Shown: positions 112-63,159 of the stretch, one piece after another
How the letters are laid out: each line of letters starts with the position of its first letter
How positions within the stretch are numbered: the first letter of the stretch is position 1
Source of the DNA: Bryobacterales bacterium
GTDB taxonomy: Bacteria; Acidobacteriota; Terriglobia; Bryobacterales; Bryobacteraceae
Direction: 5' to 3'
Length of the DNA stretch: 64,000 nt
Assembly: GCA_003170295.1 (NCBI GenBank)
Contig: PNAJ01000156.1
Coordinates: 62,001-126,000 of the forward strand
Made by a program: the position numbers and the translations under genes
The notes under the pieces: model-generated
The model's database searches: none
What the model saw: the letters and a program-made list of their open reading frames with translations, nothing else
What the model was told of the DNA's origin: nothing

Positions 112-134
112 GGTGGCACAGGCTTCAGCCTGTG
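112..134. repeat. Short hairpin repeat (GCCACC-flanked)
   Basis: Read on the minus strand this is CACAGGC-tgaa-GCCTGTG followed by CCACC: a perfect 7-bp stem with a TGAA loop. An identical copy lies at 63103-63125 and a stem variant at 63137-63159. It sits just past the stop of the YVTN lipoprotein gene (136) and immediately upstream of the next gene's ribosome binding site, so it may act as an mRNA 3'-end hairpin or be a REP-like element. Confidence 0.8.
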
Positions 135-135
135 A

Positions 136-1155
136 TCATTTCCCCAACACCAGCACGCCCCAAGGCCCGCCCGTAGTCTTAATCTTCTTCGTCACCGTCT
201 GCGTCCCCAGATCCACCACCGATACATCGTTCGAAGGACCATTCGCCGTAAACAGAATCTTCCCATCCGGCGAAATCGCGAGCCCCCACGGCCTCTGCCC
301 CACCTCAAACGACCCCGTCGGCTGATGGGTCGCCGTATCGACCACGAAAACTTTGTGCCCCCGCCCCGTACTGACATACAATTTCGAAGCGTCCAGAGAC
401 AGCGCGAGCCCCATAGGCTTGACTTCTCCCGGAGTCCCCAGCACAATCGGCGAAATCTTTTCGTTCTTCACTGTGTCCAGCAGCACGATCGATCCATCGT
501 TTTCCGCATTCACGTATGCGTGTTTCCCGTCCGGAAGAAACACGACGTTGCGCGGCCGATGCCCCACTTTGAAAGTCGTCATGAGCGTCCCCGCCGCGGG
601 ATCGATGACCGAGACGGTCCCGTCGCCCTCCGCCGTCGAATAAATCAGCTTGCCGTCCGGCGTGAGCTTGACGCCCTCGGGCTCTTCCCCGGTTCGAATC
701 GTCTTCGTGATCGCCCCCGACGCGATGTCGATGAAGCTCACACCGCTCGCATCTTCGTTCGATACATATATCGTCTTCCCGTCGAATGATACGTCGAAAT
801 TCTCCGGGTCCGATCCGCCCTTCAGCATCTTCACCATCTTGTTCTGCGCCACGTCAAACACTCCGATGCCGTCGGCATTCTTGTCGGGCGGAGGAAGCGT
901 GCTCTCGTCCACTCCCGGAGGCGCGGGCGGCGATCCGCTCAACGCGACATAAATCGTCTTCCCATCCGGACTCGCATGAATCCCGCGCGGCCTCTTCCCC
1001 AGTGGAATCGTCGCCACAACTTCCATCGGACCCGAATCGATCACCGTCAAGTCGCCTGAAATCTCGTTGGTGACGTAAATGCGATAATCTCCCCCCGGCC
1101 CGACGCGCCCGCAGCCACTCAACAGCACTACCAGAGCAACCAAAAGATGTTTCAT
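136..1155 (-). CDS. YVTN-family beta-propeller lipoprotein
   Basis: 339 residues. The N-terminus is a lipoprotein signal peptide with lipobox LSGC (Cys15), so the mature protein should be membrane-anchored outside the cytoplasm. The rest is a chain of roughly 40-residue blades with the YVTN signature (IYVTNE near residue 27, then IYVALS, IYVSNE, AYVNAE, LYVSTG) and G(K/Q)RPRG-type turns, as in the YVTN beta-propeller family. The ATG lies directly against the TAG stop of the upstream cupredoxin-like gene, with GGGAG as ribosome binding site, so the two are co-translated. It is the last gene of the six-gene redox operon. No catalytic residues are recognisable; a binding or scaffold role is inferred. 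Confidence 0.85.
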   Translation of the reverse strand: MKHLLVALVVLLSGCGRVGPGGDYRIYVTNEISGDLTVIDSGPMEVVATIPLGKRPRGIHASPDGKTIYVALSGSPPAPPGVDESTLPPPDKNADGIGVFDVAQNKMVKMLKGGSDPENFDVSFDGKTIYVSNEDASGVSFIDIASGAITKTIRTGEEPEGVKLTPDGKLIYSTAEGDGTVSVIDPAAGTLMTTFKVGHRPRNVVFLPDGKHAYVNAENDGSIVLLDTVKNEKISPIVLGTPGEVKPMGLALSLDASKLYVSTGRGHKVFVVDTATHQPTGSFEVGQRPWGLAISPDGKILFTANGPSNDVSVVDLGTQTVTKKIKTTGGPWGVLVLGK

Positions 1156-2040
1156 CTACTCTCCCTTGAACGTAAACACCGCTTCACTCTTCCCCGAAGG
1201 AGCAACGGTAACGCGCTGCACCGCGACGCCCAGTTCTTCCTGCCACGCCTCGATCGTATAATCCCCCGGCGGAATATTCTTTAACTCAAACGCCCCGTCG
1301 CTCCCCGTCACCGCGAAGTAAGGATGATCCACCACGCCGATAAACGCGTGCATCCAGCCATGAATGTTGCACTTCACGCGAATCACAATCTCGGGCTGCA
1401 TAAACCGTCGCTCCAGCGGCGCCGACCCTTGCTCCTGACTCTGGTTCCATTCGCGATTCACATGCGCCCGCGGATGAATGTTATGCGTCACTGGATCGGA
1501 ATTGGTGACCTCAAATTGTTGCCCGGTCTGCACTCCCAATACGCGAGGCACAAACCAGCACCCCTTCTGATCCATCACCGCCGCGACCGCGGGCGGAGCG
1601 AATTTTTTCCCCTCCAGCCCGCCCTTCACATACACGAAAACGTTCGCGAGCGTGCCATTCTTATTCACCGCAACCGGCCGGTCGAGCACCGCGCCCTTAT
1701 GCAGCTTGTTGCACTGCGGATCTTCCTCCATATCGACTCGCTTCGCCGCGGGCGCTTTCCCAGTAAACAAAACTTTCCCCGTCACAACTCCAGCCGTCAA
1801 CGGATCGACCTTGAAGTAAACCGGCTCCGCGGCAACCGGCGTCGGCTTAGGCCGCGAACATCCCGCCAGCATCGCCACCGCAGCCATCAAAAGCGCGAAA
1901 AGTGGGGACTGACCTCTCTGTCCCAAGGCGCGCACCATCCCTCGCGAAAATACGCGATCGCCCGGCGCCGTGTGGACAGAGCGGTCTGTCCCCATTTTTC
2001 GCCCCGTCCACAAACCTGCGTTCATCGGCGGCCAACTCAT
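1156..2040 (-). CDS. Cupredoxin-like lipoprotein with carboxypeptidase-regulatory-like C-terminus
   Basis: The middle of the protein has a plastocyanin-like copper-site pattern (HNIHPRAH, then CNIHGWMH), as in methylamine-utilization-type cupredoxins. The C-terminus (GSDGAFELKNIPPGDY) is a carboxypeptidase-regulatory-like beta sandwich. The frame starts at an ATG overlapping the peroxidase stop codon (ATGA at 2037-2040), but this start puts 48 odd residues before the signal peptide, and those residues are encoded by an inserted hairpin repeat (1902-1993). An internal ATG at 1938 gives a normal lipoprotein signal (charged start, hydrophobic core, LAGC) and may be the working start. The product is probably a periplasmic electron carrier or copper-binding lipoprotein of the redox operon. 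Confidence 0.8.
   Translation of the reverse strand: MSWPPMNAGLWTGRKMGTDRSVHTAPGDRVFSRGMVRALGQRGQSPLFALLMAAVAMLAGCSRPKPTPVAAEPVYFKVDPLTAGVVTGKVLFTGKAPAAKRVDMEEDPQCNKLHKGAVLDRPVAVNKNGTLANVFVYVKGGLEGKKFAPPAVAAVMDQKGCWFVPRVLGVQTGQQFEVTNSDPVTHNIHPRAHVNREWNQSQEQGSAPLERRFMQPEIVIRVKCNIHGWMHAFIGVVDHPYFAVTGSDGAFELKNIPPGDYTIEAWQEELGVAVQRVTVAPSGKSEAVFTFKGE
1902..1993. repeat. Palindromic GGGGAC(T/A)GACC element inside a gene
   Basis: The arms GTGGGGACTGACC-TCTCTGTCC (1902-1922) and GGACAGAGCGGTCTGTCCCC (1974-1993) pair over about 20 bp with two mismatches, around a loop of about 50 bp. A related element with the same outer arm but a different inner stem is at 3550-3627. GGGGACAGACC-type termini are reminiscent of REP-like elements linked to RAYT transposases (recalled, not searched). 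This copy lies in the 5' part of the cupredoxin-like gene, in frame. Confidence 0.75.
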
Positions 2041-3047
2041 GTCTTGGGCTTCCCAGTCAGCGACTCCAGAAAAGCCACCAGATCCGCCTTATCCTGCGCG
2101 CTCAATTTCAATTCCTTGATCTCTTTATCCAGCTGCAAATTCGAACTCCCCCCGCCCTCATAAAAATCCACGACATCTTTCAGCGTCTTCAAACTCCCAT
2201 CGTGCATGTAAGGAGCCGTCTTCGCCACATTCCGCAAACTCGGCGTCCGAAACGCCCCTTTGTCCGCCTCGACCTTCGTCTGCTCAAACCGCCCCAAATC
2301 CGTCAACTCACCGTTCTTGCCAATCCCGGCGCCCAGGTTGTGAAACTTCCCATCGGTAAACAAAGCGTACTTCTCATCGAGCGTATGGCAAGTCACGCAA
2401 TTACACCGATGCTTATCCGTAAAGATCGCCAACCCTCGAATCGCCGAATCACTCATCGCCGTCCGATCTCCACCGTACATATACCGGTCGAACGGCGAAT
2501 CTCCGCTCAGCACTGTGCGCTCAAAACTAGCGATGGCCTTCTCAATCTTGTCGATGGTGATCCGCCCCGGCCCGAATACGAGCTCAAACTCTTTCCTGTA
2601 CTCCGGTATCTTTTCGAACTTCTTAATCGAGAGCTCGTGCGACTGCCCCATCTCATCCGGATTCGCAATGGGTGCTCCCGCCTGCTGCTCCAGACTCGCC
2701 GCGCGCCCATCCCAGAACAATGTCGAATAATACGCGGCATTGAAAATCGTCGGCGCATTCCGCCGCCCGATCTTTTTTCCGATGCCCTTAGATCCCGCGA
2801 GGCCATCGGTGAAACTCAATTGAGGATTATGACAGGTAGCGCAGGAGACAGTGTCATCGCCAGACAGCCTTACGTCATAAAATAGCTTGCGACCAAGCGC
2901 GACGGAGTCGCCCGTAGGCGGATTATCGGGAGGAATCGGCACCGGCGGCAATCCCAACGGCGCTTCAATAGCAACCGGCGTACCCACAACGTGAGCCGGC
3001 GAAGAGCACGACAAACACGCAAGAAATAGAGCCGCGACCCTCTTCAA
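2037..3047 (-). CDS. Di-haem cytochrome c peroxidase (MauG/CCP family)
   Basis: 336 residues with an exported, lipoprotein-like N-terminus (FLACLSCSS). There are two haem c sites, CATCH at 69-73 and CVTCH at 217-221. The flanking family motifs are present: LGRKLFYD, the NAPTIFNAAY and FWDGRA segment, and FRTPSLRNVAKTAPYMHDGS near the C-terminus. Length and order fit bacterial di-haem peroxidases/MauG-like oxidases, which reduce H2O2 or oxidise a partner in the periplasm. The start is TTG at 3045-3047, overlapping the stop of the upstream cytochrome gene (TTGA), which indicates translational coupling. Within this operon the likely electron partners are the neighbouring cytochrome and the cupredoxin-like protein. 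Confidence 0.92.
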   Translation of the reverse strand: MKRVAALFLACLSCSSPAHVVGTPVAIEAPLGLPPVPIPPDNPPTGDSVALGRKLFYDVRLSGDDTVSCATCHNPQLSFTDGLAGSKGIGKKIGRRNAPTIFNAAYYSTLFWDGRAASLEQQAGAPIANPDEMGQSHELSIKKFEKIPEYRKEFELVFGPGRITIDKIEKAIASFERTVLSGDSPFDRYMYGGDRTAMSDSAIRGLAIFTDKHRCNCVTCHTLDEKYALFTDGKFHNLGAGIGKNGELTDLGRFEQTKVEADKGAFRTPSLRNVAKTAPYMHDGSLKTLKDVVDFYEGGGSSNLQLDKEIKELKLSAQDKADLVAFLESLTGKPKT

Positions 3048-3493
3048 AATACCAACAAATCCTTCTTAGCTTCGATCTTCTTAAAATCGACGCCCTGCAC
3101 CTTCCGCAAATCGTCGATAGATTTAAAATCGCCGTGATCGGAGCGATATTGCAGGATCGCCGCCGCCTCGGATCTCTTCAACAATAACAGCGACTCCAGA
3201 TCCACCGCCGACGCCTTGTTCACCCGAATCTGAATGGGCGCATCCGCCCCAAAGTGTTTCGTTAAATACCCGAGAATCGCGTCATAGCTCTCGTCGGGAA
3301 CCTTAGCGCCCATCCCCACCATCTTTTCGATAGTCTCAGCCCATCCCGCCTGCCCCTGCCGAAGCGAAACCGACTGTTCCGCTGAATGGCAAGTCCCACA
3401 ATACTTCAGCGTTACATCTTTGCCCGGTCCAGCCGGAATGTCCGCGCGCACAAAGCAGGCAAACACCACACCCACAACGATTCGACGAATCAT
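3044..3493 (-). CDS. Exported cytochrome c fused to a helix-hairpin-helix domain
   Basis: The ATG at 3491-3493 is preferred over an in-frame upstream codon because it gives a compact signal peptide (MIRRIVVGVVFACF) preceded by an AGGA. The product is 149 residues. It carries one haem site CGTCH (32-36) followed by the conserved W-x-x-x-I-x-x-M and YLTKHFG segments of small cytochromes. The C-terminal ~60 residues (NKASAVDLESLLLLKRSEA...FKSIDDLRKVQGV) match a ComEA-like helix-hairpin-helix. It overlaps the peroxidase gene by 4 nt. The haem domain should be periplasmic; the role of the HhH domain is unknown, with structural packing or extracellular DNA binding both possible. Confidence 0.87.
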   Translation of the reverse strand: MIRRIVVGVVFACFVRADIPAGPGKDVTLKYCGTCHSAEQSVSLRQGQAGWAETIEKMVGMGAKVPDESYDAILGYLTKHFGADAPIQIRVNKASAVDLESLLLLKRSEAAAILQYRSDHGDFKSIDDLRKVQGVDFKKIEAKKDLLVF

Positions 3494-3549
3494 AGCCACT
3501 AATCCTAATTTTATCCGGTTCACGTGCCTTTGGTCGCGAGCGATCAAGC

Positions 3550-3627
3550 GTGGGGACTGACCACCTTTTTCGCCCCTCCCCCGCGAGTGATAAGAATCCT
3601 TGGTGGCGAAAAAGGTGGTCTGTCCCC
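3550..3627. repeat. Palindromic GGGGAC(T/A)GACC element, intergenic
   Basis: The arms 3552-3574 (GGGGACTGACC then ACCTTTTTCGCC) and 3605-3627 (reverse complement ending GGTCTGTCCCC) form a 23-bp stem with one mismatch around a 30-bp loop. It lies between the PQQ-propeller gene and the cytochrome gene, so it interrupts an otherwise nearly gapless operon. It could act as a processing hairpin or attenuator. Confidence 0.8.
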
Positions 3628-3687
3628 GACCGTTCCGCAGATCGGTGTCGCAGCTCGTGCACCGCGACCCGGGCGTTCAACAGCACC

Positions 3688-5118
3688 CTATTCCCTATTC
3701 AATAAATACCCAAATGCATACAGCGTCCCATCGTGCGTCCCCACAAAAACCTTGCTAGCCCCTGAAGAAATCCCGGTAGTCGAATAACTCCCAATCGCCT
3801 TCCCGCTATTCCACAACTCCTTGCCCGTAATCCCATCGAGCGCGCACAACACAGCAGGAGCCGTCCGCGACCCCGACGACAACACAAACACCACGCCGTT
3901 CACCACAATCGGAGCCGCAGGCGACACCATCTCGCGGGACGTCCAGCCTTGTTGCAGTGCGATCGATCCGCCATCCTCGACCACCTTGAAAGCGACCACG
4001 CTGCTGCCCTTGGTCGCCAGGATCCATCTAGTCTTACTCTCCGCCTCTTCCCAACTCGCCAGCGCGTTCCCGATCCCGCTTCCGTTCCCAGGAACGTTCA
4101 CGACAATCGCAAGGCTAGCCGGATCCCTAACCAGAATGTGTCCATGAACGTTCGCCGCAACAACATATTCCTTGTCCTTGAATTTAAAAACCAGCGGCGG
4201 CGTAGCCGACTCACTGTCTTCCAGCTGCTTCACCTTCAGCGTTTTCTGCTCCAGCGCCGCGATTCCTTTACTGGTCGTCGCGTACACCGTGCCATCGGAC
4301 CCGAATGCCAACCCCAGCACCGACGCATCGCCAGTCTTCCACTCGCTCACCAGCGTGTCTTCCAGGTTGATCGACCACACCGCATTCGGCGTGCCGCCGC
4401 AATTGTCGCTGGTCACCGCATAAACGACATTCGCAACGGATATCAAATCGTGAGCCTTCGCATTCCCTCGAATAAACCGAAACGCCGGAGCAATGTCGGT
4501 CCCCGTGTTCTGATTCAGGGTGTGAATCAACCCATCGCTCGACAACGCATAAACCGCGCCCGGTGTCCTCCGAGGCCGCGGCAATGTCGGCACCGGCGCA
4601 GCCGCCATATTTCCGCGCCCGGGTCCTGGAGCTGCGCCCCGGCCTCGGCCCGCGCCCGGCGTAGGAGGCGCGAGTGGAACAGCCAACGAAAGCGCCGCAG
4701 TCATACCCGCCGGACAAGTCGCCGTGCCGTTCTTCACCGGAACCAACAACGAATCGTACGGAAGATGCGATTCCCAGAAAACTTTTCCCATCACATGATC
4801 GATCGAAACAACATTGTCGGCGCTGGTCGCGACGTAGAGCAAATCCTTGAACCCTTTGTATGTGATCAGCCGCGAGCCGACCACGGGAGGCGTCGGCACT
4901 CCATTTAATTTGATTTTCCAAAGCGTCTGCATCACGCCTGCTTGGACACTCTCGGGAGAAATGTGCGGATCGGTCTTCACCGCAGCGGATCGCTGCGCAT
5001 CTCCGCCAATTGCCATCCAGTCTCCTCCGCCGCGCCCGAATTGCGCATGTGCGAAAGATGCAAAATTAAGGGCAAATAATGCTCCGCACAGCGTCTTGTT
5101 TGCACATTTAAGGCTCAT
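3688..5118 (-). CDS. Exported PQQ-like (BamB/quinoprotein-type) beta-propeller protein
   Basis: 476 residues with a signal peptide ending SFAHAQ. The body consists of PQQ-like blades with the usual ending pattern ([56 protein letters not shown]). A low-complexity Gly/Pro/Arg insert ([16 protein letters not shown]) sits near residue 155. It lacks a haem motif and the long catalytic segments of true PQQ dehydrogenases, so it is best described as a PQQ-binding-like propeller. The start ATG overlaps the stop of the paralogous upstream gene (ATGA at 5115-5118). The two look like a tandem duplication and share a segment (CPAG-T-A followed by VYAL...DGQIH). Confidence 0.85.
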
Positions 5119-6617: not shown

Positions 6618-6647
6618 TACGACTCCTCTTGAAACGATTCATTGTAT

Positions 6648-7073
6648 CTATTTTGGCTTCCACTCGCGAGCGAGCCGCTGCGCTTCCCCGAGTTGTTGGG
6701 GCGTCAGATGCACGGCCACCGAGTCTCTCATTTCAACGATGGTGTCGCGATCATTTTGAGGAGAGTGGTCGGCGGAGATGATGAACCACGTCTCGGCTTG
6801 CACATCATCGTGCGGCAGGCCTTTGCCGGAGTGATACAAAATTCCGAGACTGGCTTGCGCGTAGACGTTTCCTTGATCGGCGGATCTGCGATACCAGCGG
6901 GCGGCTTCAGCGTAATCCTTTTTGAGACCGCTGCGGCCGCCTTCATAGTTTTTGCCGAGAGTGAATTGAGCTTCGGCGTCGCCTGCGGTGGCGCGTTCGC
7001 GGAGAGAGGGGCGGCCGGCGGGAGGCTGCGCGGCCGCGAGAGCGGTGAGTAGGAGGAACGCGAGAAGCCGCAT
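6648..7073 (-). CDS. Secreted Sel1/TPR-like repeat protein
   Basis: 141 residues with a signal peptide (MRLLAFLLLTALAAAQ). It contains consecutive Sel1-like repeats: GDAEAQFTLGKNYEGG...YAEAARWYRRSADQGNVYAQASLGILYHSGKGLPHDDVQAETWFIISADH. Sel1 repeats are helical protein-interaction scaffolds. The C-terminal TPQQLGEAQRLAREW resembles the tail found after such repeats. No specific partner can be deduced; the following propeller gene on the same strand is 30 nt away and may be co-transcribed. Confidence 0.85.
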   Translation of the reverse strand: MRLLAFLLLTALAAAQPPAGRPSLRERATAGDAEAQFTLGKNYEGGRSGLKKDYAEAARWYRRSADQGNVYAQASLGILYHSGKGLPHDDVQAETWFIISADHSPQNDRDTIVEMRDSVAVHLTPQQLGEAQRLAREWKPK

Positions 7074-7095
7074 GCTTACGATATTACCGCCGCAC

Positions 7096-15198: not shown

Positions 15199-15410
15199 CC
15201 CACATGGCGATTCGGGTTTTCATTGCTATCGGGGCGGCGATACGAGCGTCGACGCGGCACGCACGAGTGCGCGCGCCACATCGGATCACTGGCGATCAGG
15301 AGGGCTACTGGTCACGATTTCTTCTCCACATGCCATGGACTTTTCGGCTCTCCCGATCTCGCGAAATCCGCTGGGAACGGACTAAGCACCAAGTCGCGCA
15401 ACGTCTGATG

Positions 15411-16574: not shown

Positions 16575-16624
16575 GAAGAGCCGCCTGAAAGGGCGGCTGC
16601 CGCCACCATTGGCGGCCCCACAAG
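16575..16624. repeat. Double-hairpin intergenic element
   Basis: GAAG then AGCCGCC-tgaaa-GGGCGGCT (7-bp stem), then GCCGCC-accatt-GGCGGC (6-bp stem), then CCCACAAG. The same architecture occurs at 43788-43836, at 52411-52464 and, inverted, at 40297-40350. It lies upstream of the fucosidase gene. Confidence 0.8.
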
Positions 16625-22783: not shown

Positions 22784-22808
22784 GGCAGGCGGAACCGCCT
22801 GCCCCACC
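22784..22808. repeat. Single-hairpin element ending CCCCACC
   Basis: GGCAGGCGG-aa-CCGCCTGCC followed by CCACC: a perfect 9-bp stem. Near-identical copies lie at 43403-43427 and 47879-47903. It sits between the convergent lyase and PQQ dehydrogenase genes and could terminate transcription. Confidence 0.85.
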
Positions 22809-35239: not shown

Positions 35240-36133
35240 ATGGATGGAAACTCTCTTCCCCGTCGCAAATTTCTCTCCCATTCCGTCGCGCTAGCCACAG
35301 CCGCTCTCGCACCCGCCGGAGTCCTTCGCGAGCCCGGAGTTAAACTGAAACTCGCGCTAAACGCCTACTCCTTCAACCAGCCTCTAATGGCCGGCACGAT
35401 GACGCTCGACGACGTCGTTCACTTCTGCGCCCAGCACCGCGTCGACGCTCTCGACGCCACCGGCTATTATTTCCCGGGTTATCCCAAAGCTCCACCCGAC
35501 GACTATATCTACAATCTGAAAAAGACCGCGTTCCTCAATGGCGTCCAACTCAGCGGCACGGGCGTTCGCAACGATTTCGCCGTGGCTGACGCCGCCGCTC
35601 GAAAACGCGACATCCAGATGGTCAAGGATTGGATCGAGGTCGCGAGCAAGCTCGGCGCCCCCGTCATCCGCGTGTTCTCCGGCCGCGCGCGTCCCGAAGG
35701 CCACACTTTCGATCAGGTGCTCGAATGGATGATCCCCGAGTTTCAGGAGTGCGCCGAATACGGTAAGCGCCACGGCGTCATCCTCGGCCTGCAGCAGCAC
35801 AACGATTTTCTCAAGACCGCGGACGAAACCATCCGCGTGATCGATGCAGTGAACTCCCCGTGGTTCGGCGACATTCTCGACGTCGGCAGCCTCCGCACCA
35901 ACGATCCTTATCAGGAGATCGAAAAACTCGTGCCCTACGCCGTATCCTGGCAACTAAAGGAGAAGGTCGGCTATGGCACAAAAGAGGCAGACACCGACCT
36001 CCAGCGAATTAAAGCGATCATCAATAAAGTCGGATATCGCGGCGTTCTTCCCTTCGAAGCCCTGGGCGGAGGCGATCCGCGCGAAAGAGTGGCGAATTTC
36101 CTGGAGCGTATCCGTGCCGCCTTCGCCCTCTAG
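35240..36133 (+). CDS. Exported sugar phosphate isomerase/epimerase-like TIM-barrel protein
   Basis: 297 residues with a twin-arginine signal (LPRRKFLSHSVALATAALAP). The AP-endonuclease-2/xylose-isomerase-like barrel is recognisable: KLALNAYSFNQPL, VDALDATGYYFPGYP, GAPVIRVFSGRA, GVILGLQQHNDFLKTADE, WFGDILDVGSL, AVSWQLKEKVG, RGVLPFEALGGGDPRERV. Putative metal ligands (Glu/His/Asp/Glu) lie in these strands, although the first usual Glu is Gln-rich here (LQQHND). It probably acts on sugars in the periplasm. It starts 9 nt after the ArsC-like gene. Confidence 0.87.
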   Translation: MDGNSLPRRKFLSHSVALATAALAPAGVLREPGVKLKLALNAYSFNQPLMAGTMTLDDVVHFCAQHRVDALDATGYYFPGYPKAPPDDYIYNLKKTAFLNGVQLSGTGVRNDFAVADAAARKRDIQMVKDWIEVASKLGAPVIRVFSGRARPEGHTFDQVLEWMIPEFQECAEYGKRHGVILGLQQHNDFLKTADETIRVIDAVNSPWFGDILDVGSLRTNDPYQEIEKLVPYAVSWQLKEKVGYGTKEADTDLQRIKAIINKVGYRGVLPFEALGGGDPRERVANFLERIRAAFAL

Positions 36134-36147
36134 CGCGCATGCCGCAT

Positions 36148-36256
36148 GTGGGGCAGGGCCATGCCCTGCCAATAAAGAAGTCCGAAGATTTAGAAAATGT
36201 CGTTCTTATGTGGCGCGCGCCTCCAGGCGTGCCGCGTCGACACTCGTGTCGCCGCT
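36148..36256. repeat. Two hairpin elements in a 133-bp gap
   Basis: First: GTGGGGCAGGGC-CATGCCCTGCC (36148-36170), a GGCAGGGC/GCCCTGCC stem with a CCCCAC edge on the minus strand. Second (36210-36256): reading on the minus strand, CGACAC-ga-GTGTCG followed by a CGCCT/AGGCG hairpin and GCCACAT. They separate the isomerase-like gene from the next gene, whose ATG (36267) follows 10 nt later. Confidence 0.75.
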
Positions 36257-36266
36257 GTCTAACTAA

Positions 36267-37448
36267 ATGCTCCGCGACTTCGACGTCACCCTCTACGGCG
36301 CCACCGGTTTCACCGGCCGCCAGACCGTCGCGTATTTTCGCAAGTTCGCTCCACCCGGCCTGCGCTGGGCCATTGCCGGACGCAACCAGGCCAAGCTGGA
36401 GGCCCTCAAAGCGCAGGTTCCCGTGCTCGTAGCCGACGCCGGCGATCAATCTGCATTAGACGTTCTCGCCGCGCGCACTCGTGTAATCCTCACCACCGCT
36501 GGTCCGTTCGCGCTCTACGGCACCGGGCTTGTCGATGCCTGCGTTCGCTTCGGCACGCACTATGTGGACATCACCGGCGAAACGAATTGGGCGCGTGTGC
36601 TGATCGATTGCTATCACGAGAAGGCCGCCGCCGATGGGACGCGCATCATTCCGTTCTGCGGATTCGATTCCATTCCATCGGATCTCGGCGCGATGCTAAT
36701 CGCAAACGCACTGGGGCCGGACACGCACGAAGTGAAAGCTTTTTTTCAGATGCGAGGAGGACTCAATGGAGGCACCCTCGCCTCCATACTGAACATGTAC
36801 GAATCGGGCGCGGATACAGCGGTGCGCGATCTTTTCCTGTTAAGTCCCACCGTCACGCGCGCGCCTAGCGAACTCGAGCAAGATCCCGTCGGCGCGATTC
36901 ACGATGCCGACCTCAACACCTGGACCGCACCTTTCGTGATGAGCAGGATCAACACCCGCGTCGTGCGCCGCAGTTGCGCGATCCTCGGCGTCGACTTCGC
37001 GTATCAGGAATACATGAAGCTCGGCGGCCATTTCGCGGCAGTTGTTGCGGCAACGGGGGGCGCGCTGTTTGAGCGTTCCATGCGTTTCGCCCCGGTCCGC
37101 GGCCTGTTGCACACAATTGGTCCTGCTCCGGGCGCCGGCCCGTCGGAGGAAACGATGGACAACGGCTGGTTTCGCTGCGATCTATTCGGCAAAACCTCCG
37201 GAGGCCACACCGCGCAAGCCGTCATCAGCGATAAAGGAGATCCCGGAAACCGCGTCACCGTAAAGTGCCTGTGCGAATCCGCTCTCGCGTTAGCACTCGA
37301 TCAATTTCCCGATCGCGCCGGAGTGCTCACGCCTGCAACAGGCATCGGCGACGCGCTAGTCAATCGCCTGCGCGCCCGCGGCATGACGCTTTCAGTTACT
37401 TCAGCTCCGCCATCATCCCAGGCAGGCTCCACTGCATCTGCATACTAG
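36267..37448 (+). CDS. Saccharopine-dehydrogenase-like NAD(P)-binding protein (trans-acting enoyl reductase-like)
   Basis: 393 residues. The N-terminal Rossmann motif is YGATGFTGRQTVAYF. Further family marks: WAIAGRNQAKLEAL, VILTTAGPFALYGTGLVDACVRFGTHYVDITGE and IIPFCGFDSIPSDLGA. This matches the branch of saccharopine-dehydrogenase-like proteins that includes trans-acting enoyl reductases; the actual substrate is unknown. The last 53 nt overlap the convergent metallo-beta-lactamase-fold gene, an unusual tail-to-tail overlap. The C-terminal SSQAGSTASAY looks unconserved, so the true protein may once have ended earlier. Confidence 0.87.
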   Translation: MLRDFDVTLYGATGFTGRQTVAYFRKFAPPGLRWAIAGRNQAKLEALKAQVPVLVADAGDQSALDVLAARTRVILTTAGPFALYGTGLVDACVRFGTHYVDITGETNWARVLIDCYHEKAAADGTRIIPFCGFDSIPSDLGAMLIANALGPDTHEVKAFFQMRGGLNGGTLASILNMYESGADTAVRDLFLLSPTVTRAPSELEQDPVGAIHDADLNTWTAPFVMSRINTRVVRRSCAILGVDFAYQEYMKLGGHFAAVVAATGGALFERSMRFAPVRGLLHTIGPAPGAGPSEETMDNGWFRCDLFGKTSGGHTAQAVISDKGDPGNRVTVKCLCESALALALDQFPDRAGVLTPATGIGDALVNRLRARGMTLSVTSAPPSSQAGSTASAY

Positions 37449-40296: not shown

Positions 40297-40433
40297 GTGG
40301 GGCGGACCCCCCGGTCCGCGCGGGTCCCCCCGGACCCGCTCTGGCTTGTGGTGCACGCTGGCAGCCTGCGGCGGGTTGGCAGAAGCTGTCCCAAAAATCG
40401 CCAGTCCGCCGTGGGGCAAGGCCATGCCCTGCC
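40297..40433. repeat. Inverted double-hairpin element plus a single-hairpin element
   Basis: Element 1 (40297-40350): GTGGG then GCGGACC-cccc-GGTCCGC then CGGGTCC-cccc-GGACCCG, i.e. the double-hairpin family in reverse orientation. Element 2 (40411-40433): GTGGGGCAAGGC-cat-GCCCTGCC. Between them is a GCAGCCTGC-containing segment related to the 15.0-kb inverted repeat. This fills the 238-bp gap between divergent genes. Confidence 0.78.
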
Positions 40434-43402: not shown

Positions 43403-43427
43403 GGCAGGCGGAACCGCCTGCCCCACC
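43403..43427. repeat. Single-hairpin element ending CCCCACC
   Basis: GGCAGGCGG-aa-CCGCCTGCC followed by CCACC, identical to 22784-22808. Confidence 0.85.
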
Positions 43428-43787: not shown

Positions 43788-43836
43788 GAAGAGCCGCCTC
43801 GAAAGGCGGCTGCCGCCAAAATTGGCCGCCCCACAA
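43788..43836. repeat. Double-hairpin intergenic element
   Basis: GAAGA then GCCGCCT-cgaa-AGGCGGC (perfect 7-bp stem), then GCCGCC-aaaatt-GGCCGCC (imperfect), then CCACAA. It is closely related to 16575-16624. It lies 50 bp upstream of the MauE-thioredoxin gene. Confidence 0.8.
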
Positions 43837-47842: not shown

Positions 47843-47903
47843 CCCGGGATTCCCCCCGGGTTTCCCCCAGGTAGCGCTGGCAGGCGAAACCGCCTGCCCC
47901 ACC
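47843..47903. repeat. Hairpins between zwf and the M24 peptidase gene
   Basis: CCCGGG-attccc-CCCGGG (47843-47860) is followed by the single-hairpin element GGCAGGCG-aaac-CGCCTGCC plus CCACC (47879-47903). The latter is a diverged copy of 22784-22808. It may terminate zwf transcription. Confidence 0.78.
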
Positions 47904-52406: not shown

Positions 52407-52410
52407 CTCG

Positions 52411-52464
52411 GAAGAGCCGGACCGGGGGGGTCCGGCTGCGGACAAGGGGGTCCGCCCCACAAGA
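52411..52464. repeat. Double-hairpin element between convergent genes, likely terminator
   Basis: GAAGA then GCCGGACC-ggggg-GGTCCGGC (52416-52436, perfect 8-bp stem), then GCGGAC-aagggg-GTCCGC (52438-52455), then CCCACAAG. It has the same layout as 16575-16624 but different stem sequences. Its place between two convergent stops suits bidirectional termination. Confidence 0.82.
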
Positions 52465-56789: not shown

Positions 56790-56793
56790 ATTT

Positions 56794-59700
56794 TTAGAAC
56801 CGCAATCTCAAGGTAGCCGACACGGATCGCATGGGACCCGCGCTGGTGATCAAGCCGTACTGCGACGAGTTCACCACCGTGATCAATCCCGAGGGATTGA
56901 CGTGATTCAGAAAGTTGTTGGTGTCAACGCGGAACTCCAGGCGCCTCCGCTCGGAATGCAGATTGATGCTGCGCGCTAGCGACAAGTTCAACATCACCGA
57001 TCCCGGTCCAATGATGGTATCGCGGCCGGCGTTGCCGAAGGTCGCCGGAGCGGGCACCGAGAATGCCGCGGTATTGAACCAGCCGGTCCCGGCATTCTCC
57101 GCGAGTCCGGTGGCATTGGCGCGAAGCGCGGCGCTCGATCCGGTGCCGTCCAGATTGCCGCTCACCGTAGCCGTCTGCGGCGCGCCGGTTTGCCCGGTGA
57201 TCCCTCCTGAGAGCGTCCAGTCCTTGAGCGCTTTCGCCAGGAAAACCGGGTGTGCAAGGATTCCTTTGGTCGCATCGACCGGCGAGGCGTACACGAAATT
57301 GAGCGACATCACGTGGGTGTGATTGAACGAAGAGATAGCGCGTTCGGCCGATTGATTATAGAAATTTTGCGCCAATACCGCGTCATCGATCGCTTTGGAA
57401 TAGGTGTACATCAGGTTCGAGGAAATTCCCTTGGCGAAGCGCCGCGTCAGCCGCAATTGCCCAGCGTGATAAATCGAATTGCCCACGGGTGTGTCGTAAG
57501 TAAAGTTGCCGGCGTTGGCGATCGGGTAGCGCTGCTCGGAGGTCAGCGACGATCCGAGAGGCGCCTGATTGGGCGACTCCGGCACGTCGAGACGCGTTCC
57601 TTTCGTCCCCAGGTAACTAGCCTCCAGCACCAGCATTCTGGCGAGATCCCTCTGCACGCCGATATTCCAGCTCTGCGCGTACATATCGCGATAATTGAGC
57701 GCCACGGCGTAGGTATTCGTGATCGTCTTGCCCGACTGTTGCAACAGCCCGCTAGACAAAGTCAGCGGATCCGCGCTACTCGTGGTCACCGTGTTGGTCA
57801 CTGCGAAAGGCGGCTGCGCGGCCAACCTTTGCTGGAACTGGTTATATTGGCTCGGATTGTAATACCAGCCGTAGCCGGCGCGAATCAGCAATTTTCCCTT
57901 CGGATTCGGTTTCCACGCGATAGCCAGACGCGGCGCGAAGTTGTTGCGATCGGGATTGATCAGCGCGGCCGGATACGTCCCGCCAAAAGGACCCGGCTGA
58001 CCCGGCGTTACCGGCGCCACCGCGGCGAAGTTCGGAGCGACGTCCAGATTCGCGGCATGTCCGTATTTTTCCTGCCACGGCGCGAAGAACTCATACCGGA
58101 GGCCCAAATTTAGGCTGAGGCCGGTCGAGACCCGGAAATCATCCACCACGAATACGTTGTAGCTGTTGGTGCGGTAGTAGGTGCTGGAATCGCCATAGCG
58201 AATCGAGCTGGTCTCAGGCAGCGCCAGCAGGAAATCGGCGAAGTCGTAGCCCGTGTTCGGGACCGCTTGTCCGTTCACGTATTGAGCCGTGGAGAGACCC
58301 GAAAAGCTGAATGCGCCGCGGCCATTGGAGTCCGTGATCAGGTTGCTCAGATAGTGCGTGTATCCGCCGCCCAAGCTGAAATTGTGTTTGCCCTTGCGTA
58401 CCGTCAGCGTATCGGTGATCCCGAAGCTTTCTACCGCGCTATGCGACGCATTGCCATCGTTCAAGTTGCTGTAGTTCGTAAAACTGAGGCTCGGAGGACC
58501 GTAGTTTCGAGGATCGGACGAAGGGCCGGAGATCCCCAATTGCTGGGCGATATTCTGCCCCAGGGTCTCGAAATACGGCGTCGCGATGCTGGTGTTGCGG
58601 TTGAAATTGAGGGTCACGGATTCGAAGCTGCGCGTGCCCAGGCGGTGCCGCCATGTGGCGTTTCCGTTAAATCCGTTGCCGCTCGAGGCGTCGCAGCATC
58701 CGTACACTTGATCGGTGCGCCCGTTGCGTCCCTGCCAGTTGAGGACGAACGCGAGATTGTCCTTCGGCGTAACGGTCGCATTCACACGCGTATTCAGACT
58801 CTGCGAATTGTTCGGATTCGCGGTGATCAGACGGAAGTTTTGATTGATGCCCGCGACCGCCTGATTGGGTTGAGGGATGAAATTCAAGAGGCCGAGCGAA
58901 ATCGGACTGAGCCGCGTCAGAGGGATTTGATTATTGGCGAACGGCAACCCCGAGAGGGGATCGAAAATCGAGGCGTTAATCGAGGAGAAATTTCCCGCGC
59001 GCTCAGCCGGAGTCGCCACGCTCGAAGCCTGATCGACACCGTTGCGCAGCAGATTCCCGCTGTAGTTCAGGAACCACGTAATTTTGTCAAAGTTGAATAG
59101 TTTCGGGATATATAAAGGTCCGCCGGCCGAGAATCCGAAGCGGTTCTGCGCATAGGCCGCCTTGGGAGCCTCCAGGCCGTTCACCGAAAAAGGCCTCGCG
59201 TTCAGAGCCGAGTTTGCAAAAGTATAGAACAGCGATCCGGTAATGCGATTGCTGTTGCCGCGCGCCCGGTTACCGATGAATGCCTGATTGCCGTTGCGAT
59301 CGCGAGGAGGCCTGTCGCCGCCGCGTCCACCGCGTCCGCCTGGACCACCGCCGCCGCCCGGTCCACCTCCGCCGCCGCGTCCACCGCCGAATCCGCCGCC
59401 GGGACCACCAGGTCCGCCGCCGCCCATTGCCGCCATTCCCGGAGGACCGCCGGGCCCACCTTGACCACCGCCTGGTCCGCCGCGCCCAAATCCTCCTGGT
59501 CCGCCCAGTCCGCCCATGCCCTCGTCCGGCCGCATGTCGTTCGCGTTGGTTTGCAGGCCCTGGCTCAAACTGCCGTTCACCATCAGGGATTCGTTGGCTC
59601 CATCTGACGCGGCCATCGCGGTTCCCGGAGCAGTGTCCGGCGCAGCCGCCGTGTCAACCGACGGAGCTTCGGCGTCTCCGCCAGTTTGTCCGCCACGCCC

Positions 59701-60015
59701 GCCGGGCCCGCGCCCGAGTTGCGAGCGATCGCGCAGGGTCAGCACAAAATCGAATTTGGAGGGAATCGCGCCGATGGTGACTTCTTTGCGCGCCGTGGTA
59801 AATCCAAACATTTCGACCGTCACGATCCAGGCGCCTGGAGTCATGCCGTCGATCTGAAACGCGCCCTGGTCATCGGTCAAGGTGAGCAGAGCTTTATCGC
59901 CCTGCGTCGCCTTCACCGCGGCGCCGGGAATGGCTTGGTTTTCGGCCTTCACGACCCCCGACTGCCCCAATGCGATAGCCGCGAGACACACGCCGGCGAG
60001 CACGAGATTTTTCAC
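56794..60015 (-). CDS. TonB-dependent receptor-like protein with carboxypeptidase-regulatory N-terminal domain
   Basis: 1073 residues from GTG 60015, with a signal peptide (MKNLVLAGVCLAAIALGQS). Residues ~18-95 are a carboxypeptidase-regulatory-like domain (AIPGAAVKATQGDKALLTLTDDQGAFQIDGMTPGAW). Residues ~100-245 are an extreme Gly/Pro/Arg-rich insert. After it come plug and barrel segments of the OmpA/TonB-receptor-like family common in Acidobacteria (FGFSAGGPLYIPKLFNF, LNLGLRYEFFAPW, NNFAPRLAIAW, the terminal LRLRF). The last residue is Phe, as in outer-membrane barrels. It is a likely uptake or surface-binding channel; the ligand is unknown. Confidence 0.92.
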   Translation of the reverse strand: MKNLVLAGVCLAAIALGQSGVVKAENQAIPGAAVKATQGDKALLTLTDDQGAFQIDGMTPGAWIVTVEMFGFTTARKEVTIGAIPSKFDFVLTLRDRSQLGRGPGGRGGQTGGDAEAPSVDTAAAPDTAPGTAMAASDGANESLMVNGSLSQGLQTNANDMRPDEGMGGLGGPGGFGRGGPGGGQGGPGGPPGMAAMGGGGPGGPGGGFGGGRGGGGGPGGGGGPGGRGGRGGDRPPRDRNGNQAFIGNRARGNSNRITGSLFYTFANSALNARPFSVNGLEAPKAAYAQNRFGFSAGGPLYIPKLFNFDKITWFLNYSGNLLRNGVDQASSVATPAERAGNFSSINASIFDPLSGLPFANNQIPLTRLSPISLGLLNFIPQPNQAVAGINQNFRLITANPNNSQSLNTRVNATVTPKDNLAFVLNWQGRNGRTDQVYGCCDASSGNGFNGNATWRHRLGTRSFESVTLNFNRNTSIATPYFETLGQNIAQQLGISGPSSDPRNYGPPSLSFTNYSNLNDGNASHSAVESFGITDTLTVRKGKHNFSLGGGYTHYLSNLITDSNGRGAFSFSGLSTAQYVNGQAVPNTGYDFADFLLALPETSSIRYGDSSTYYRTNSYNVFVVDDFRVSTGLSLNLGLRYEFFAPWQEKYGHAANLDVAPNFAAVAPVTPGQPGPFGGTYPAALINPDRNNFAPRLAIAWKPNPKGKLLIRAGYGWYYNPSQYNQFQQRLAAQPPFAVTNTVTTSSADPLTLSSGLLQQSGKTITNTYAVALNYRDMYAQSWNIGVQRDLARMLVLEASYLGTKGTRLDVPESPNQAPLGSSLTSEQRYPIANAGNFTYDTPVGNSIYHAGQLRLTRRFAKGISSNLMYTYSKAIDDAVLAQNFYNQSAERAISSFNHTHVMSLNFVYASPVDATKGILAHPVFLAKALKDWTLSGGITGQTGAPQTATVSGNLDGTGSSAALRANATGLAENAGTGWFNTAAFSVPAPATFGNAGRDTIIGPGSVMLNLSLARSINLHSERRRLEFRVDTNNFLNHVNPSGLITVVNSSQYGLITSAGPMRSVSATLRLRF

Positions 60016-60070
60016 GTTAAGAATGACGAACCCCCTCTAACCGGCGTGGTGTTTTGAGTTTTTTGAGGAT

Positions 60071-60427
60071 CTACTGTTTGGTGAGCGTGATGTCCATCGG
60101 ATCGCCACGGCCGCGGTCAACCTTCAGGCTCATCGTGGTTCCCGAAACGGTTCCCGTGTATTTTGACGTCCTCTTTCCCTTGTCGCCCATATCGACGGTT
60201 ACTTCAAAGTAGATTTTGTCTCCGTCTACTTTGCCATTGGTGATTTCGGTTTCGCCGTTGCGGCCCGTACTCGTGCCGGTCAGCGTGGATCCACTCTGCT
60301 TCAGCGTGAAATTCGGAGGCCCGCCCTTGCCGGTCGCTTCACCCTTCCAAGTTCCCGTCACATCGGCCGCCATGGCCATTACCGTGGTGAGCGCAAAGAG
60401 CGCGCACAGAGATATCAGTTTCTTCAT
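60071..60427 (-). CDS. Small secreted beta-rich protein
   Basis: 118 residues with a signal peptide (LISLCALFALTTVMAMAA) and a good GGGAGG ribosome binding site. The mature part is a run of beta strands beginning ADVTGTWKGEATGKGGPPNFTLKQSGSTLTGT and ending SLKVDRGRGDPMDITLTKQ, like small lipocalin-type secreted domains. It has no catalytic motif. It lies upstream of the TonB receptor on the same strand (55-nt gap) and may be co-transcribed with it. Confidence 0.8.
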   Translation of the reverse strand: MKKLISLCALFALTTVMAMAADVTGTWKGEATGKGGPPNFTLKQSGSTLTGTSTGRNGETEITNGKVDGDKIYFEVTVDMGDKGKRTSKYTGTVSGTTMSLKVDRGRGDPMDITLTKQ

Positions 60428-60490
60428 TCTTTCCTCCCTGAGGTTGTGTCAGACGTTACGAACGTACGTTGTAATGATGGCCCGCGACCG

Positions 60491-60520
60491 GGTATAGGTT
60501 ACACCACGCTGGGGTTTCAA
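60491..60520 (-). promoter_or_regulatory. Possible promoter for the secreted protein/TonB receptor/VWFA genes
   Basis: On the minus strand: TTGAAA (60520-60515), an 18-nt spacer, and TATACC (60496-60491), about 65 nt before the ATG at 60427. It is moderate in strength by eye. Confidence 0.35.
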
Positions 60521-60596
60521 CCTTTCCCTGAGCCAACCATTCAGCAGAAAGACGTGCGCGCGACTAGGAAGGATGACACACGCGCCTCGTTTTGTA

Positions 60597-60614
60597 GAAA
60601 ATGAACACATTTTC
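60597..60614. promoter_or_regulatory. GAAAATG palindrome upstream of the microcompartment genes
   Basis: GAAAATG-aaca-CATTTTC is a perfect 7-bp inverted repeat in the divergent region, 72 bp before the shell-protein start. It is a candidate operator or hairpin; no regulator gene is adjacent. Confidence 0.4.
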
Positions 60615-60685
60615 ATTGGATTGGCAAGCCTTATGCCGGTCGTGTGATAGCTTAGTATGTTCGCTGGGACATTTAGGAGGCCTCT

Positions 60686-60961
60686 ATGGAAGCCCTGGGA
60701 ATGGTGGAAACCAAAGGTCTGATCGGCGCGATTGAAGCGGCCGACGCGATGGTGAAGACCGCCAAGGTCGTGCTCATGGGAAAAGAATACATCGGCGCCG
60801 GATTTGTGACCGTCACTGTCCGAGGCGACGTCGGAGCGGTCAAAGCCGCTACCGATGCGGGAGCTGCGGCCGCCCGGCGGGTAGGCGAGCTGGTGGCCGT
60901 CCACGTGATCCCCGCGCCGCATAGCGATGTCGAGAAGATCCTGCCCGGCGCAAAGAAATAG
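60686..60961 (+). CDS. Bacterial microcompartment shell protein (BMC-H, PduA/EutM-like)
   Basis: 91 residues, the normal length of a single BMC domain. The pattern [29 protein letters not shown]...[27 protein letters not shown], followed by [18 protein letters not shown], is diagnostic. Such proteins form hexameric tiles of a polyhedral shell around an aldehyde-producing pathway. An AGGAGG ribosome binding site is 6 nt upstream. The aldehyde dehydrogenase gene starts 18 nt downstream, which makes a catabolic microcompartment the likely setting. No pentamer (BMC-P) or trimer gene is in the window. Confidence 0.95.
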
Positions 60962-60979
60962 TCCATTCCGTTTCGCTAA

Positions 60980-62602
60980 ATGTTGCAGGATCAAGACCTC
61001 ATTTCGATACAAGAGGTCCGCGCCAAGGTAGACCAAGCCTACGCCGCCTGGACCCGCTACCGGTCCGTCTCGCAATCCGAAGCCGACGCGGTCGTCGAGG
61101 CCGCGGCCGCCGCCGCCCGCACCCATGCGCAACGCCTTGCAGATCTCGCAGTGGAAGAAACAGGCTACGGCAACGCCCGCGACAAGTTCGCGAAAAACAT
61201 GCTCGCCGCGGATGTTCTCGCGAAGCGCATGCGCGGAATGCGAACGCTCGGAGTACTGCGCGAGATCCCAGATCAGAAGATCGTCGAGATCGGCGTCGCG
61301 ATGGGCGTGGTTGCGGCGATTCTGCCCACCACGAATCCCACTTCGACCGCGATTTATAAAACGCTCATCGCGCTGAAATCCGGCAACGGCATTGTGCTCG
61401 CCCCGCATCCGCGCGCCCGCGCCTGTTCGTGCGAATCCGCCGCGATCATGGCCGAGGCCGCGGTGAAGGCTGGCGCGCCCGAAGGCCTCATTCAGTGCCT
61501 CACCGCGTCGACCATCGAAGGCACCAACGAGTTGATGCGTCATCCAAAAACGGCGGTGATTCTTTCCACCGGCGGAGCGGGAATTGTGCGGGCGGCATAT
61601 TCGAGCGGCAAACCCGCTTACGGAGTCGGCCCCGGCAACGTTCCGGTTCTCGTGGATATTTCCGCGAACATCCCCGAGGCGATCGCAAAAATCGTGGAAG
61701 GAAAATCCTTCGATTACGGGACGCTGTGTTCCAGCGAGCAAACTCTGGTTGCCGAAAAATCGTTGCGCGAGCAGATCCTCGCGGCGCTAAAGGCGAATCG
61801 CGCGCATCGGTGCGACATCCCGCAGACCGCCGCGCTCGCACGCCTGCTCATTACTAAGAATCTCGGCATCAATCCCGATTGCGTCGGCCAGTCGCCCGAA
61901 AAAATCGCGAAAATGGCCGGTTTTGAAGTTCCGAACGAAACCAGCATTCTCACCGTCGAGATCGAAGGCATTGGCAAAAAGCATCCTCTCTCGGCCGAAA
62001 AGCTATCGCCGGTTCTGTCGCTCCATTTCGTCCCCGATTTCGCGGCCGCGCTCGACGCCTGTGAAGCGGTGCTCCGATTCGCGGGTCTCGGCCACACCTG
62101 CGGCATCTACGCGACCGACGACGCGCGCATCCGGACCTTCGCGCTCCGCATGCCCGCTTATCGCGTGATCGCGAATTCGCCCACGCCCACGGGCTCCACT
62201 GGAATCTCGACCAACTTGTTTCCGGCGATGACGCTCGGCTGCGGCGCGGTGGCCGGCAACTCGACCAGCGACAACGTGAGTCCCCTCCACTTGATCAACA
62301 TCAAACGGTTGGCGTATGCTGTCGATGCGACCGTGTCTTCTGAAATCGATCCTAAAACTATCGATCGGGCCCAAATCGTCTCCGCCGTCGAGCGGTTTCT
62401 CTCGTCGAGGGGCGTCGCGAAAAAGGAAGCCCTTCCTGCTCCGGCGCCTGAACCGCCGATCTCCGATTTTGTGTGTGAAGACGACGTGCGCAAAGCCATC
62501 GCTCAATCGAAAAAGATTTTTATCGGACCGAAAACGATCGTGACGCCCTCGGCTCGCGATCTGGCCGGTCCCCATGACATCCTTATATTGACGAAGAAAT
62601 GA
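60980..62602 (+). CDS. Microcompartment-associated CoA-acylating aldehyde dehydrogenase (EutE/PduP-like)
   Basis: 540 residues, longer than typical EutE/PduP. Family motifs: AILPTTNPTSTAIYKTLIALKSGNGIVLAPHPRA, VGPGNVPVLVD, and GTLCSSEQT with catalytic Cys250. It would convert an aldehyde plus CoA and NAD+ to acyl-CoA inside the shell. After residue ~480 a Pro/Ala linker (EALPAPAPEPP) leads to a C-terminal extension (CEDDVRKAIAQSKKIFIGPK followed by TIVTPSARDLAG) that could be the encapsulation or shell-docking segment. It lies 18 nt after the shell gene and 10 nt before the next gene. Confidence 0.95.
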   Translation: MLQDQDLISIQEVRAKVDQAYAAWTRYRSVSQSEADAVVEAAAAAARTHAQRLADLAVEETGYGNARDKFAKNMLAADVLAKRMRGMRTLGVLREIPDQKIVEIGVAMGVVAAILPTTNPTSTAIYKTLIALKSGNGIVLAPHPRARACSCESAAIMAEAAVKAGAPEGLIQCLTASTIEGTNELMRHPKTAVILSTGGAGIVRAAYSSGKPAYGVGPGNVPVLVDISANIPEAIAKIVEGKSFDYGTLCSSEQTLVAEKSLREQILAALKANRAHRCDIPQTAALARLLITKNLGINPDCVGQSPEKIAKMAGFEVPNETSILTVEIEGIGKKHPLSAEKLSPVLSLHFVPDFAAALDACEAVLRFAGLGHTCGIYATDDARIRTFALRMPAYRVIANSPTPTGSTGISTNLFPAMTLGCGAVAGNSTSDNVSPLHLINIKRLAYAVDATVSSEIDPKTIDRAQIVSAVERFLSSRGVAKKEALPAPAPEPPISDFVCEDDVRKAIAQSKKIFIGPKTIVTPSARDLAGPHDILILTKK

Positions 62603-62612
62603 AATACCAACC

Positions 62613-63101
62613 GTGAAGCTAAATCTGGATTCCCTCCGCGCCGAAATCGAGAGCTACCTCGAAACGCATGGCATCGTTGTTTTTCATAGCCACCCCCGCG
62701 CCGGCGACACTTCCGCGCCCGTTTATTGGGACACGGACCGTCACCCCGATTACAAACTGTTTCTCGCCGCGGCCGAATCGGCGGGCGCGAAGCTGGTCAC
62801 CATACACGCGCGCGAATTTAACGAGGATATTCTCGAAGACGCGCTCGATCACGCCGCTTCGACAAATCTGCCGCGGGAGGAGCGCCGCGCCATTGAACTA
62901 CGCCTCAAGGAAATGCGTGGCTACATCGGATTCACGTGCCAGATCGAACTGTCCTTCGACCTCGCGCCGCGCGTCTATGTCTTTGACCTGCGCACGGATT
63001 GGTTTGACGATCTGAACGATCTTCTCGACCGCGTCGACGACGCGCAGATTAAGCCCGATGGCGATTCGCCAATGGGCGGCGGATATTTTTCGAAAAACTA
63101 A
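62613..63101 (+). CDS. Conserved-looking protein of unknown function, third gene of the microcompartment operon
   Basis: 162 residues from GTG 62613, 10 nt after the dehydrogenase stop. It is acidic and soluble with no signal peptide. It opens with LDSLRAEIESYLETHGIVVFHSHPRAG, then has YKLFLAAAESAGAKLVTIHAREFNEDILEDAL, RELRLKEM-type helices and FTCQIELSFDLAPRVYVFDLRTDWFDDLNDLLDRV. The FHSH and DLRTDW segments are candidates for functional residues. No family is recognised. Position suggests either a microcompartment accessory role or a housekeeping gene placed before recJ. Confidence 0.75.
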   Translation: MKLNLDSLRAEIESYLETHGIVVFHSHPRAGDTSAPVYWDTDRHPDYKLFLAAAESAGAKLVTIHAREFNEDILEDALDHAASTNLPREERRAIELRLKEMRGYIGFTCQIELSFDLAPRVYVFDLRTDWFDDLNDLLDRVDDAQIKPDGDSPMGGGYFSKN

Positions 63102-63102
63102 T

Positions 63103-63159
63103 CACAGGCTGAAGCCTGTGCCACCTGGCTTAAGGAGGTGGCACAGACTTTAGTCTGTG
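63103..63159. repeat. Head-to-head hairpin pair (BIME-like)
   Basis: CACAGGC-tgaa-GCCTGTG then CCACC (63103-63125), followed by GGTGG and CACAGAC-ttta-GTCTGTG (63137-63159). The second is an inverted copy with a different but still self-complementary stem, and the CCACC/GGTGG edges also pair with each other. The first hairpin is identical to 112-134. The pair ends 12 nt before the recJ start. Confidence 0.82.

Follow-up and report, generated by a model that had tools for sequence, protein, structure and literature searches.

The hairpins dispersed between the genes of the window (the whole stretch of 64,000 nucleotides analysed here, C147:62001-126000 of the source genome) are very probably REPs (repetitive extragenic palindromes) of at least six coexisting families, accompanied by one decayed copy of a seventh, and were probably spread by RAYTs (REP-associated transposases). 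Copy number and the score against the RAYT family model aside, the sequence features tested are those of the REP/RAYT system as published; less usual here are a common two-hairpin unit and the presence of families with no cognate RAYT in an assembly which is 83% complete. In the accessible part of PMC2817692, the system is defined by a GT(A/G)G head, a RAYT lying between inverted REPs and the coevolution of the two, the repeats being dispersed, extragenic and usually present in over 100 copies per genome.

An earlier note on this DNA had described at least ten hairpins sharing a CCCCAC or GCCACC edge as a single family, with compensating stem changes between its subtypes. The number was exceeded and the edge recurs beyond chance; the single family did not hold, A, B, C, D, E and F being distinct REP families, and the changes which qualify as compensatory are confined to single families (A and D).

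Repeats of the window

The window holds 14 REP elements of six types (three A, three B, and two each of C, D, E and F), beside which an additional decayed R3-like copy lies at 40348 (Table 1). Each element, when its edge is read as the 5' side, consists of a GTGG foot followed directly by a hairpin. CCCCAC is the reverse complement of GTGGGG and GCCACC that of GGTGGC, and the two edges are thus two continuations of one foot. In types A and B a constant G precedes the foot, GGTGG being found in 20/20 and 26/26 copies, respectively. The hairpins previously quoted at eight places, which are the A, B and C elements, are all present, those at 40411 and 47879 with the particulars given in the table; the six D, E and F elements are additional to them. 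According to simple gene calls all elements are intergenic, apart from a small overlap at 63137-63159, whose last few bases run into the following gene if one of its candidate starts is used, the product of that gene being, by our reading, RecJ-like.

Table 1. REP elements of the window, in window coordinates
Type	Positions	Strand	Description
A	112..134	+	GGTGG foot and hairpin
A	63103..63125	-	one half of an inverted pair, feet inward
A	63137..63159	+	other half of the pair; A-T replaces G-C at one stem pair
B	22784..22807	-	
B	43403..43426	-	second, partial B stem alongside
B	47879..47902	-	stem 8, loop 4
C	36148..36170	+	
C	40411..40433	+	one stem mismatch (A opposite C)
D	40297..40339	+	two adjacent hairpins
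D	52415..52460	-	two adjacent hairpins, the first with one mismatch
E	36210..36255	+	two adjacent hairpins
E	15234..15279	-	
F	16579..16621	-	two adjacent hairpins
F	43792..43834	-	two adjacent hairpins
R3-like	40348..40390	+	decayed; second hairpin not intact

GTGG followed by a hairpin with a score of at least 7 occurs 11 times in the window, against a mean of 2.25 in eight dinucleotide shuffles (about five times as often), and with a score of at least 8 it occurs 7 times against 0.4. At any score the excess is only 36 against 15.9, so the weak GTGG hairpins of the window are partly due to chance. Matches at 1902 and 1972 belong to a different, TIR-like repeat and were excluded from the element count. 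The region 1902-1995 contains inverted GGGGACTG/GGGGACAG-type repeats with a length of about 90 nt, which resemble both the ends of two loci (L001 and L003) and the GGGGWSAS TIRs which PMC3733652 describes for Y1 transposases of the TIR type. A search of the whole window against Rfam at the gathering score gave 0 matches.

Foot enrichment, dispersal and avoidance of genes

The source genome assembly comprises 6.2 Mb in 168 contigs and is 82.9% complete. Feet were counted in 41 of its stretches (862,591 nt), namely the window and 40 others which form a non-random sample, since their contigs were picked for PF01797 hits. GTGG stands directly 5' of a hairpin in 83 of 6,893 occurrences (12.0 per 1,000) and its reverse, CCAC, in 14 of 6,893 (2.0 per 1,000), a six-fold difference, while GTAG and CTAC each do so in 8 of 2,881 (2.8 per 1,000). 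Enrichment depends on the direction of the foot, and in this genome it does not extend to GTAG. The remaining 13 control feet range from 1.9 to 4.8 per 1,000, except for TGGG (13.4), whose rate reflects the identical elements shifted by one base. In an unbiased count of the tetranucleotides beside perfect hairpins GTGG comes no higher than eleventh, standing next to 20 of 155 hairpins, and the words ahead of it are GC-rich; it is the rate per occurrence, rather than the raw count of words beside hairpins, that reveals the foot.

The suspected intergenic bias was borne out in the same 41 stretches: 7 of 57 GTGGGGC hairpins lie in called genes, where 50.8 were expected, and the other 50 are extragenic. 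Avoidance is weaker for the other GTGG hairpins (16/26 in genes, 23.2 expected), which surely include chance ones, and GTGGGGC sequences without a strict hairpin, decayed copies among them, were found in genes in 75 of 105 cases (93.5 expected). Stable, GC-rich hairpins between genes might also be intrinsic terminators or mRNA 3'-end hairpins which recur through convergent selection, and this is highly improbable here. A run of four T follows within 12 nt on the 3' side in just 3/57; tandem, convergent and divergent gaps contain 27, 11 and 10 elements, close to their shares of intergenic bases (0.54, 0.19 and 0.27); and in tandem gaps the foot strand is the gene strand in 11 of 27 cases. Terminators were rejected on the T runs and on gene orientation, divergent gaps not being avoided, and they would moreover leave the fixed foot and the linkage to RAYTs unexplained.

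The repeats are dispersed in the source genome. Strict patterns matched 20 times for A, 26 for B, 11 for C and 96 for D in the whole 83% assembly (one D place being counted on both strands), and the same four patterns read backward gave 0 matches each. In 40 relatives the strict patterns yielded 2 matches for A, 29 for B in 6 genomes, 25 for D in 6 genomes and none for C. Many copies are identical though their flanks are unrelated. Around the type E element at 36210..36255, about 47 of 1,201 bases recur at nine or more other places of the genome, and these alone, which makes type E the plainest two-hairpin unit. The search for an empty site of 35700-36900 returned part of a neighbouring gene in one relative (G029) and short matches, mostly at the type E copy, with no empty site among them; the mobility of the REPs, by means of RAYTs, is consequently something that we infer.

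Stem covariation within families

Type D copies were aligned from 37 places picked by the foot and by GC and loop letters only, a stem not being required. Columns 10-19 (A-T 26, T-A 6, G-C 2) pair in 34/37 rows against 23.3 with random partners, and columns 12-17 (C-G 28, G-C 6) in 34/37 against 24.2. After 10 of the 37 rows were dropped owing to a shorter-loop shift, truncation or decay, the intact set consisted of 27 rows, 23 of them distinct, with changes on both sides at 10 of 15 pairs. Their covariation score was reached by none of 500 shuffles, and sliding the partners abolishes the covariation. Invariant pairs number four of seven in hairpin 1 and none of eight in hairpin 2. The single variable pair of type A is G-C in 12 copies and A-T in 8, and is thus paired in 20/20. 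Compensatory changes therefore exist within families A and D. The previous suggestion that the fold or the copying mechanism is under selection is upheld by this covariation and by the position of RAYTs between inverted copies of matching hairpins (see below). The inverted type A pairs on three contigs (C112, C114 and C147) each combine one G-C copy with one A-T copy, never two alike.

Transposases and their flanking repeats

PF01797 matches number 85 and are spread over 24 of 41 genomes; the source genome accounts for 12. None of these 12 is on the contig of the window, nor did the RAYT profile match any of the window's open frames of at least 80 aa, in agreement with the earlier remark that the window has no transposase. 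The neighbourhoods of 81 of the 85 places were read, and 15 of them are surrounded by a matched inverted pair of hairpins with a GTGG (12) or GTAG (3) foot. Under a crude motif typing, which classed several TIR-type proteins as class-2-like, matched GTRG pairs occur at 15 of 32 class-2-like places and at 0 of 49 others. GTRG is not the sole paired foot among Y1 transposases, since 4 of 30 "other" places are bordered by matched inverted hairpins bearing its reverse, CCAC. At four loci (L053, L055, L056 and L076) strong PF01797 proteins with an ADHVHM motif lie between inverted hairpins bearing a 5' CCAC foot.

The linkage of the hairpins to Y1/RAYT transposases, which had been proposed as something to look for, was recovered for most of the types and not for type C, whose cognate RAYT was found in none of the genomes examined. 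RAYTs lie between inverted R3 stems at L006 (source genome), L073, L097 and L091, between D stems at L096 and L104, between E or E-like stems at L085, L102 and L101, and between A stems at L093; five further RAYT-flanking stems are absent from the window. A variant of B is paired at one RAYT end only, the 3' end of L118, and type F flanks a broken RAYT of the source genome (L008) on either side, in direct rather than inverted orientation. Similar stretches (CTCCCGGT.TGGGAAGAAGCGAATGA) flank the latter and its two type F hairpins (G000:C44, ~62500-65000), as if a piece of a neighbouring gene had been duplicated. In L006 and L073 the downstream REP falls within the 3' end of the reading frame, and the last residues of the RAYT are hence encoded by the repeat. 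Three other Y1 transposases of the source genome (L007, L010 and L011) have a Y..(E/K)Q-like motif and nearby GACCGCTCCC..GTCGCGG hairpins, and look like class 3 as described in the accessible part of PMC6006769.

As to their identity, nine of the ten proteins scanned had NCBIfam REP_Tyr_transpos as their top model; its cut-off of 80 bits was passed by two of the ten (82.8 and 95.3), the other class-2 proteins scoring 52.2 to 79.9 bits. The cut-off of PF01797 was passed by 9 of 9 proteins scanned, and the best PDB match of the RAYT profile was 4er8, the structure of E. coli TnpA-REP (E 1.1e-15).

With the RAYT profile five class-2 loci were found in the source genome (C71, C123, C153, C44 and C27), of which those on C44 and C27 are in two pieces each, the other three frames being open. 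Types A, B, C and D flank none of these five in the 83% assembly; a single type E copy lies about 400 nt downstream of the RAYT on C123 and is the only E in that 20-kb stretch. The genomes holding a D RAYT carry 2 (G011) and 6 (G023) copies of D, whereas the source genome has its 96 matches without one. The cognate RAYTs of A-D may have been lost, may lie in the unassembled 17% or may have a related RAYT acting in trans in their place.

One way to account for these orphan types would be a single promiscuous RAYT lineage of the source genome (R3, on C153) which spreads several of them in trans, the stems being loose variants instead of separate systems. All types do share a foot, the assembly offers no cognate RAYT for A-D, the motifs GTGGGGC[A/G]G and GGCCGA are common to D and R3, and an intermediate copy exists at L046 18048. 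The RAYTs which were found, however, carry their own stem type at their flanks, and stem distance tracks RAYT distance (Mantel r 0.352, n 24, p 0.0004, with one hand-picked REP per RAYT and the foot excluded), which makes such promiscuity unlikely. RAYT clades with a single stem type comprise D, R3, E (L085, L095 and L102), P (CAGGCTTCAGCCTG), F (in which one foot is GTGG and the other GTAG) and two GTAG stems resembling each other; L101 falls outside the E group in spite of its E-like stem, and the deeper branches of the tree are without resolution.

Orphan types and the two class-2 loci in pieces might also be explained if the repeats were old, no longer mobile and retained for a role in the host (nucleoid, RNA stability) after the loss of their RAYTs. 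The many identical copies with unrelated flanks point to a spread that is not very old, and three class-2 frames are still open; we regard this explanation as rather doubtful. Several REP families, each spread by its own RAYT lineage, are the preferred reading.

Type A beyond the genus

In the genome collection the exact A pattern matches at least 117 stretches, and among those listed 108 are, by record title, from Acidobacteriota lineages and nine from others, four of the nine coming from one Binataceae bin and five being singletons, which may reflect chance or contamination. A RAYT search in 15 genomes chosen from the A-bearing ones gave 79 matches, of which 30 loci were read. Type A pairs surround a RAYT in three further genomes: G052, G050 (a 95-residue piece) and the Binataceae bin, G044, in which one place was carried under two loci. 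In G047 the set is mixed, with GTAG and GTGG feet. The RAYTs of type A are not resolved as a single clade, the one from Binataceae being on a long branch, and type A may have been passed sideways across lineages or merely kept.

Second hairpins and paired copies

A second hairpin directly behind the first was found in 41 of 57 GTGGGGC elements (2.1 expected from shuffles) and on the foot side in 0. Of 34 other GTRG hairpins 6 are followed in this way, the expectation being 0.9. Among 24 RAYT-linked REPs, which were hand-picked and in some cases are closely related, 18 have the second hairpin, against an expected 0.59. The six RAYT-linked REPs without it are two A, one B and three of GTAG types.

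Inverted neighbours of type D have their feet outward at a spacing of 81 to 109 nt (seven pairs), and two more outward pairs belong to other types. Three inward pairs (A, B and C) are spaced by 14 to 43 nt, those of B and C being formed with a GTGGCG partner. Five D pairs have kept both second hairpins intact, and every one of them consists, by eye, of a GGCCGAC half and a GCCGGAC-like half.

The dinucleotides flanking the elements were examined post hoc (four dinucleotides, two sides, five types), on family copies which are not independent. CT just 3' of hairpin 2 of D stands out strongly, with 24/31 against a background of 4.9 and a highest value of 7. Moderate or weak preferences are CT 5' of F (8/12, background 3.5), CA 3' of C (7/11, 2.7) and CA 3' of B (12/26, 7.1), and type A has none for the four dinucleotides on either side.

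In a tentative proposal, possible rather than probable, the usual REP unit of the genus would be a two-hairpin substrate. The foot and the conserved hairpin 1 would provide sequence-specific binding, and hairpin 2, which varies freely yet is almost always paired, would serve a second RAYT subunit or mark the cut, as with the CT behind it in D. The halves of the ~105-bp inverted D pair, feet outward, would be different fixed ends, and D a very small non-autonomous element whose left and right ends are IS200-like and which spreads in trans without a RAYT of its own. If this were true, D would be an intermediate between insertion sequence and REP.

Relation to known systems and proposed mechanism

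The repeats are like those of Stenotrophomonas, Pseudomonas and Xanthomonas, as far as the accessible part of PMC2817692 describes them, in having a head directly before a GC-rich palindrome, a RAYT between inverted REPs, dispersed extragenic copies, coevolution of stem and RAYT, and compensatory changes. They differ in that many families are present at once, GTGG is nearly always the foot and a second hairpin is often adjacent. Beyond its own groups that study found no homologs; the repeats described here are from other genomes.

From the available text of PMC3733652, a likeness to GTAG repeats and TIRYTs lies in the dimers (HH, TT) with feet outward or inward and in the heterodimers, and the TIR-type transposases which it reports for Acidobacteria are also present in the source genome. 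GTAG repeats are there attributed to Proteobacteria, Cyanobacteria, Chloroflexi and PVC, Acidobacteria being named for TIRYTs only. It also offers a precedent for two hairpins, in degenerate GTAG-1 units joined to unrelated stem-loops by two Pseudomonas transposase genes; what is termed bizarre there is here the common unit of many RAYT lineages. A search of the open-access literature gave no description of two-hairpin REPs in Acidobacteriota, a weak absence as subscription papers were mostly outside its scope.

The survey of class 2 and class 3 TnpA-Y1 in PMC6006769 resembles the present case in placing GTAG or GTGG 0-2 nt from a stem of 7-20 bp, and in that Acidobacteria are given class 3 members whose structures reach high copy numbers. 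The REP shapes drawn in it, short (one stem) and long (two stems linked by a bulge), are unlike the side-by-side hairpins of this genus, and its subclasses 2.6 and 3 have atypical structures.

In vitro, TnpA-REP recognises foot and hairpin on single strands and cleaves at CT sites, according to the available part of PMC8266576, and family D, with CT just after hairpin 2, is consistent with such sites. In the same account, changing GTAG to GTGG moved one enzyme to CC, CA also being cut. Under that guide model GTGG would favour CC or CA, whereas family D keeps CT with a GTGG foot, for which the shared descent of its copies can be an alternative cause.

The proposed mechanism would begin with a RAYT, as an HUH/Y1 transposase, probably binding the foot and hairpin 1 as single strands; hairpin 1 would be the main recognition site, and REPs would move by a single-strand route. 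The enzyme would then cut and join single-stranded DNA, and the REP would be copied or moved into intergenic DNA. Each RAYT lineage having its own stem, the foot stays constant (GTGG, at times GTAG) while the stems differ, and selection on folding would keep the stem pairs matched within each family. The mobile unit would be the foot, hairpin 1 and an adjacent hairpin 2 in many lineages, and the foot with one hairpin in A, B and C.

Many RAYT lineages, each with its own stems and a nearly constant foot, thus occur side by side in one genus. They constitute a matched set for asking how a RAYT distinguishes its own hairpin, whether it acts in trans and what role the second hairpin has, and they raise the question of how some 100 copies of one repeat family are maintained in a genome in which no cognate transposase is seen.
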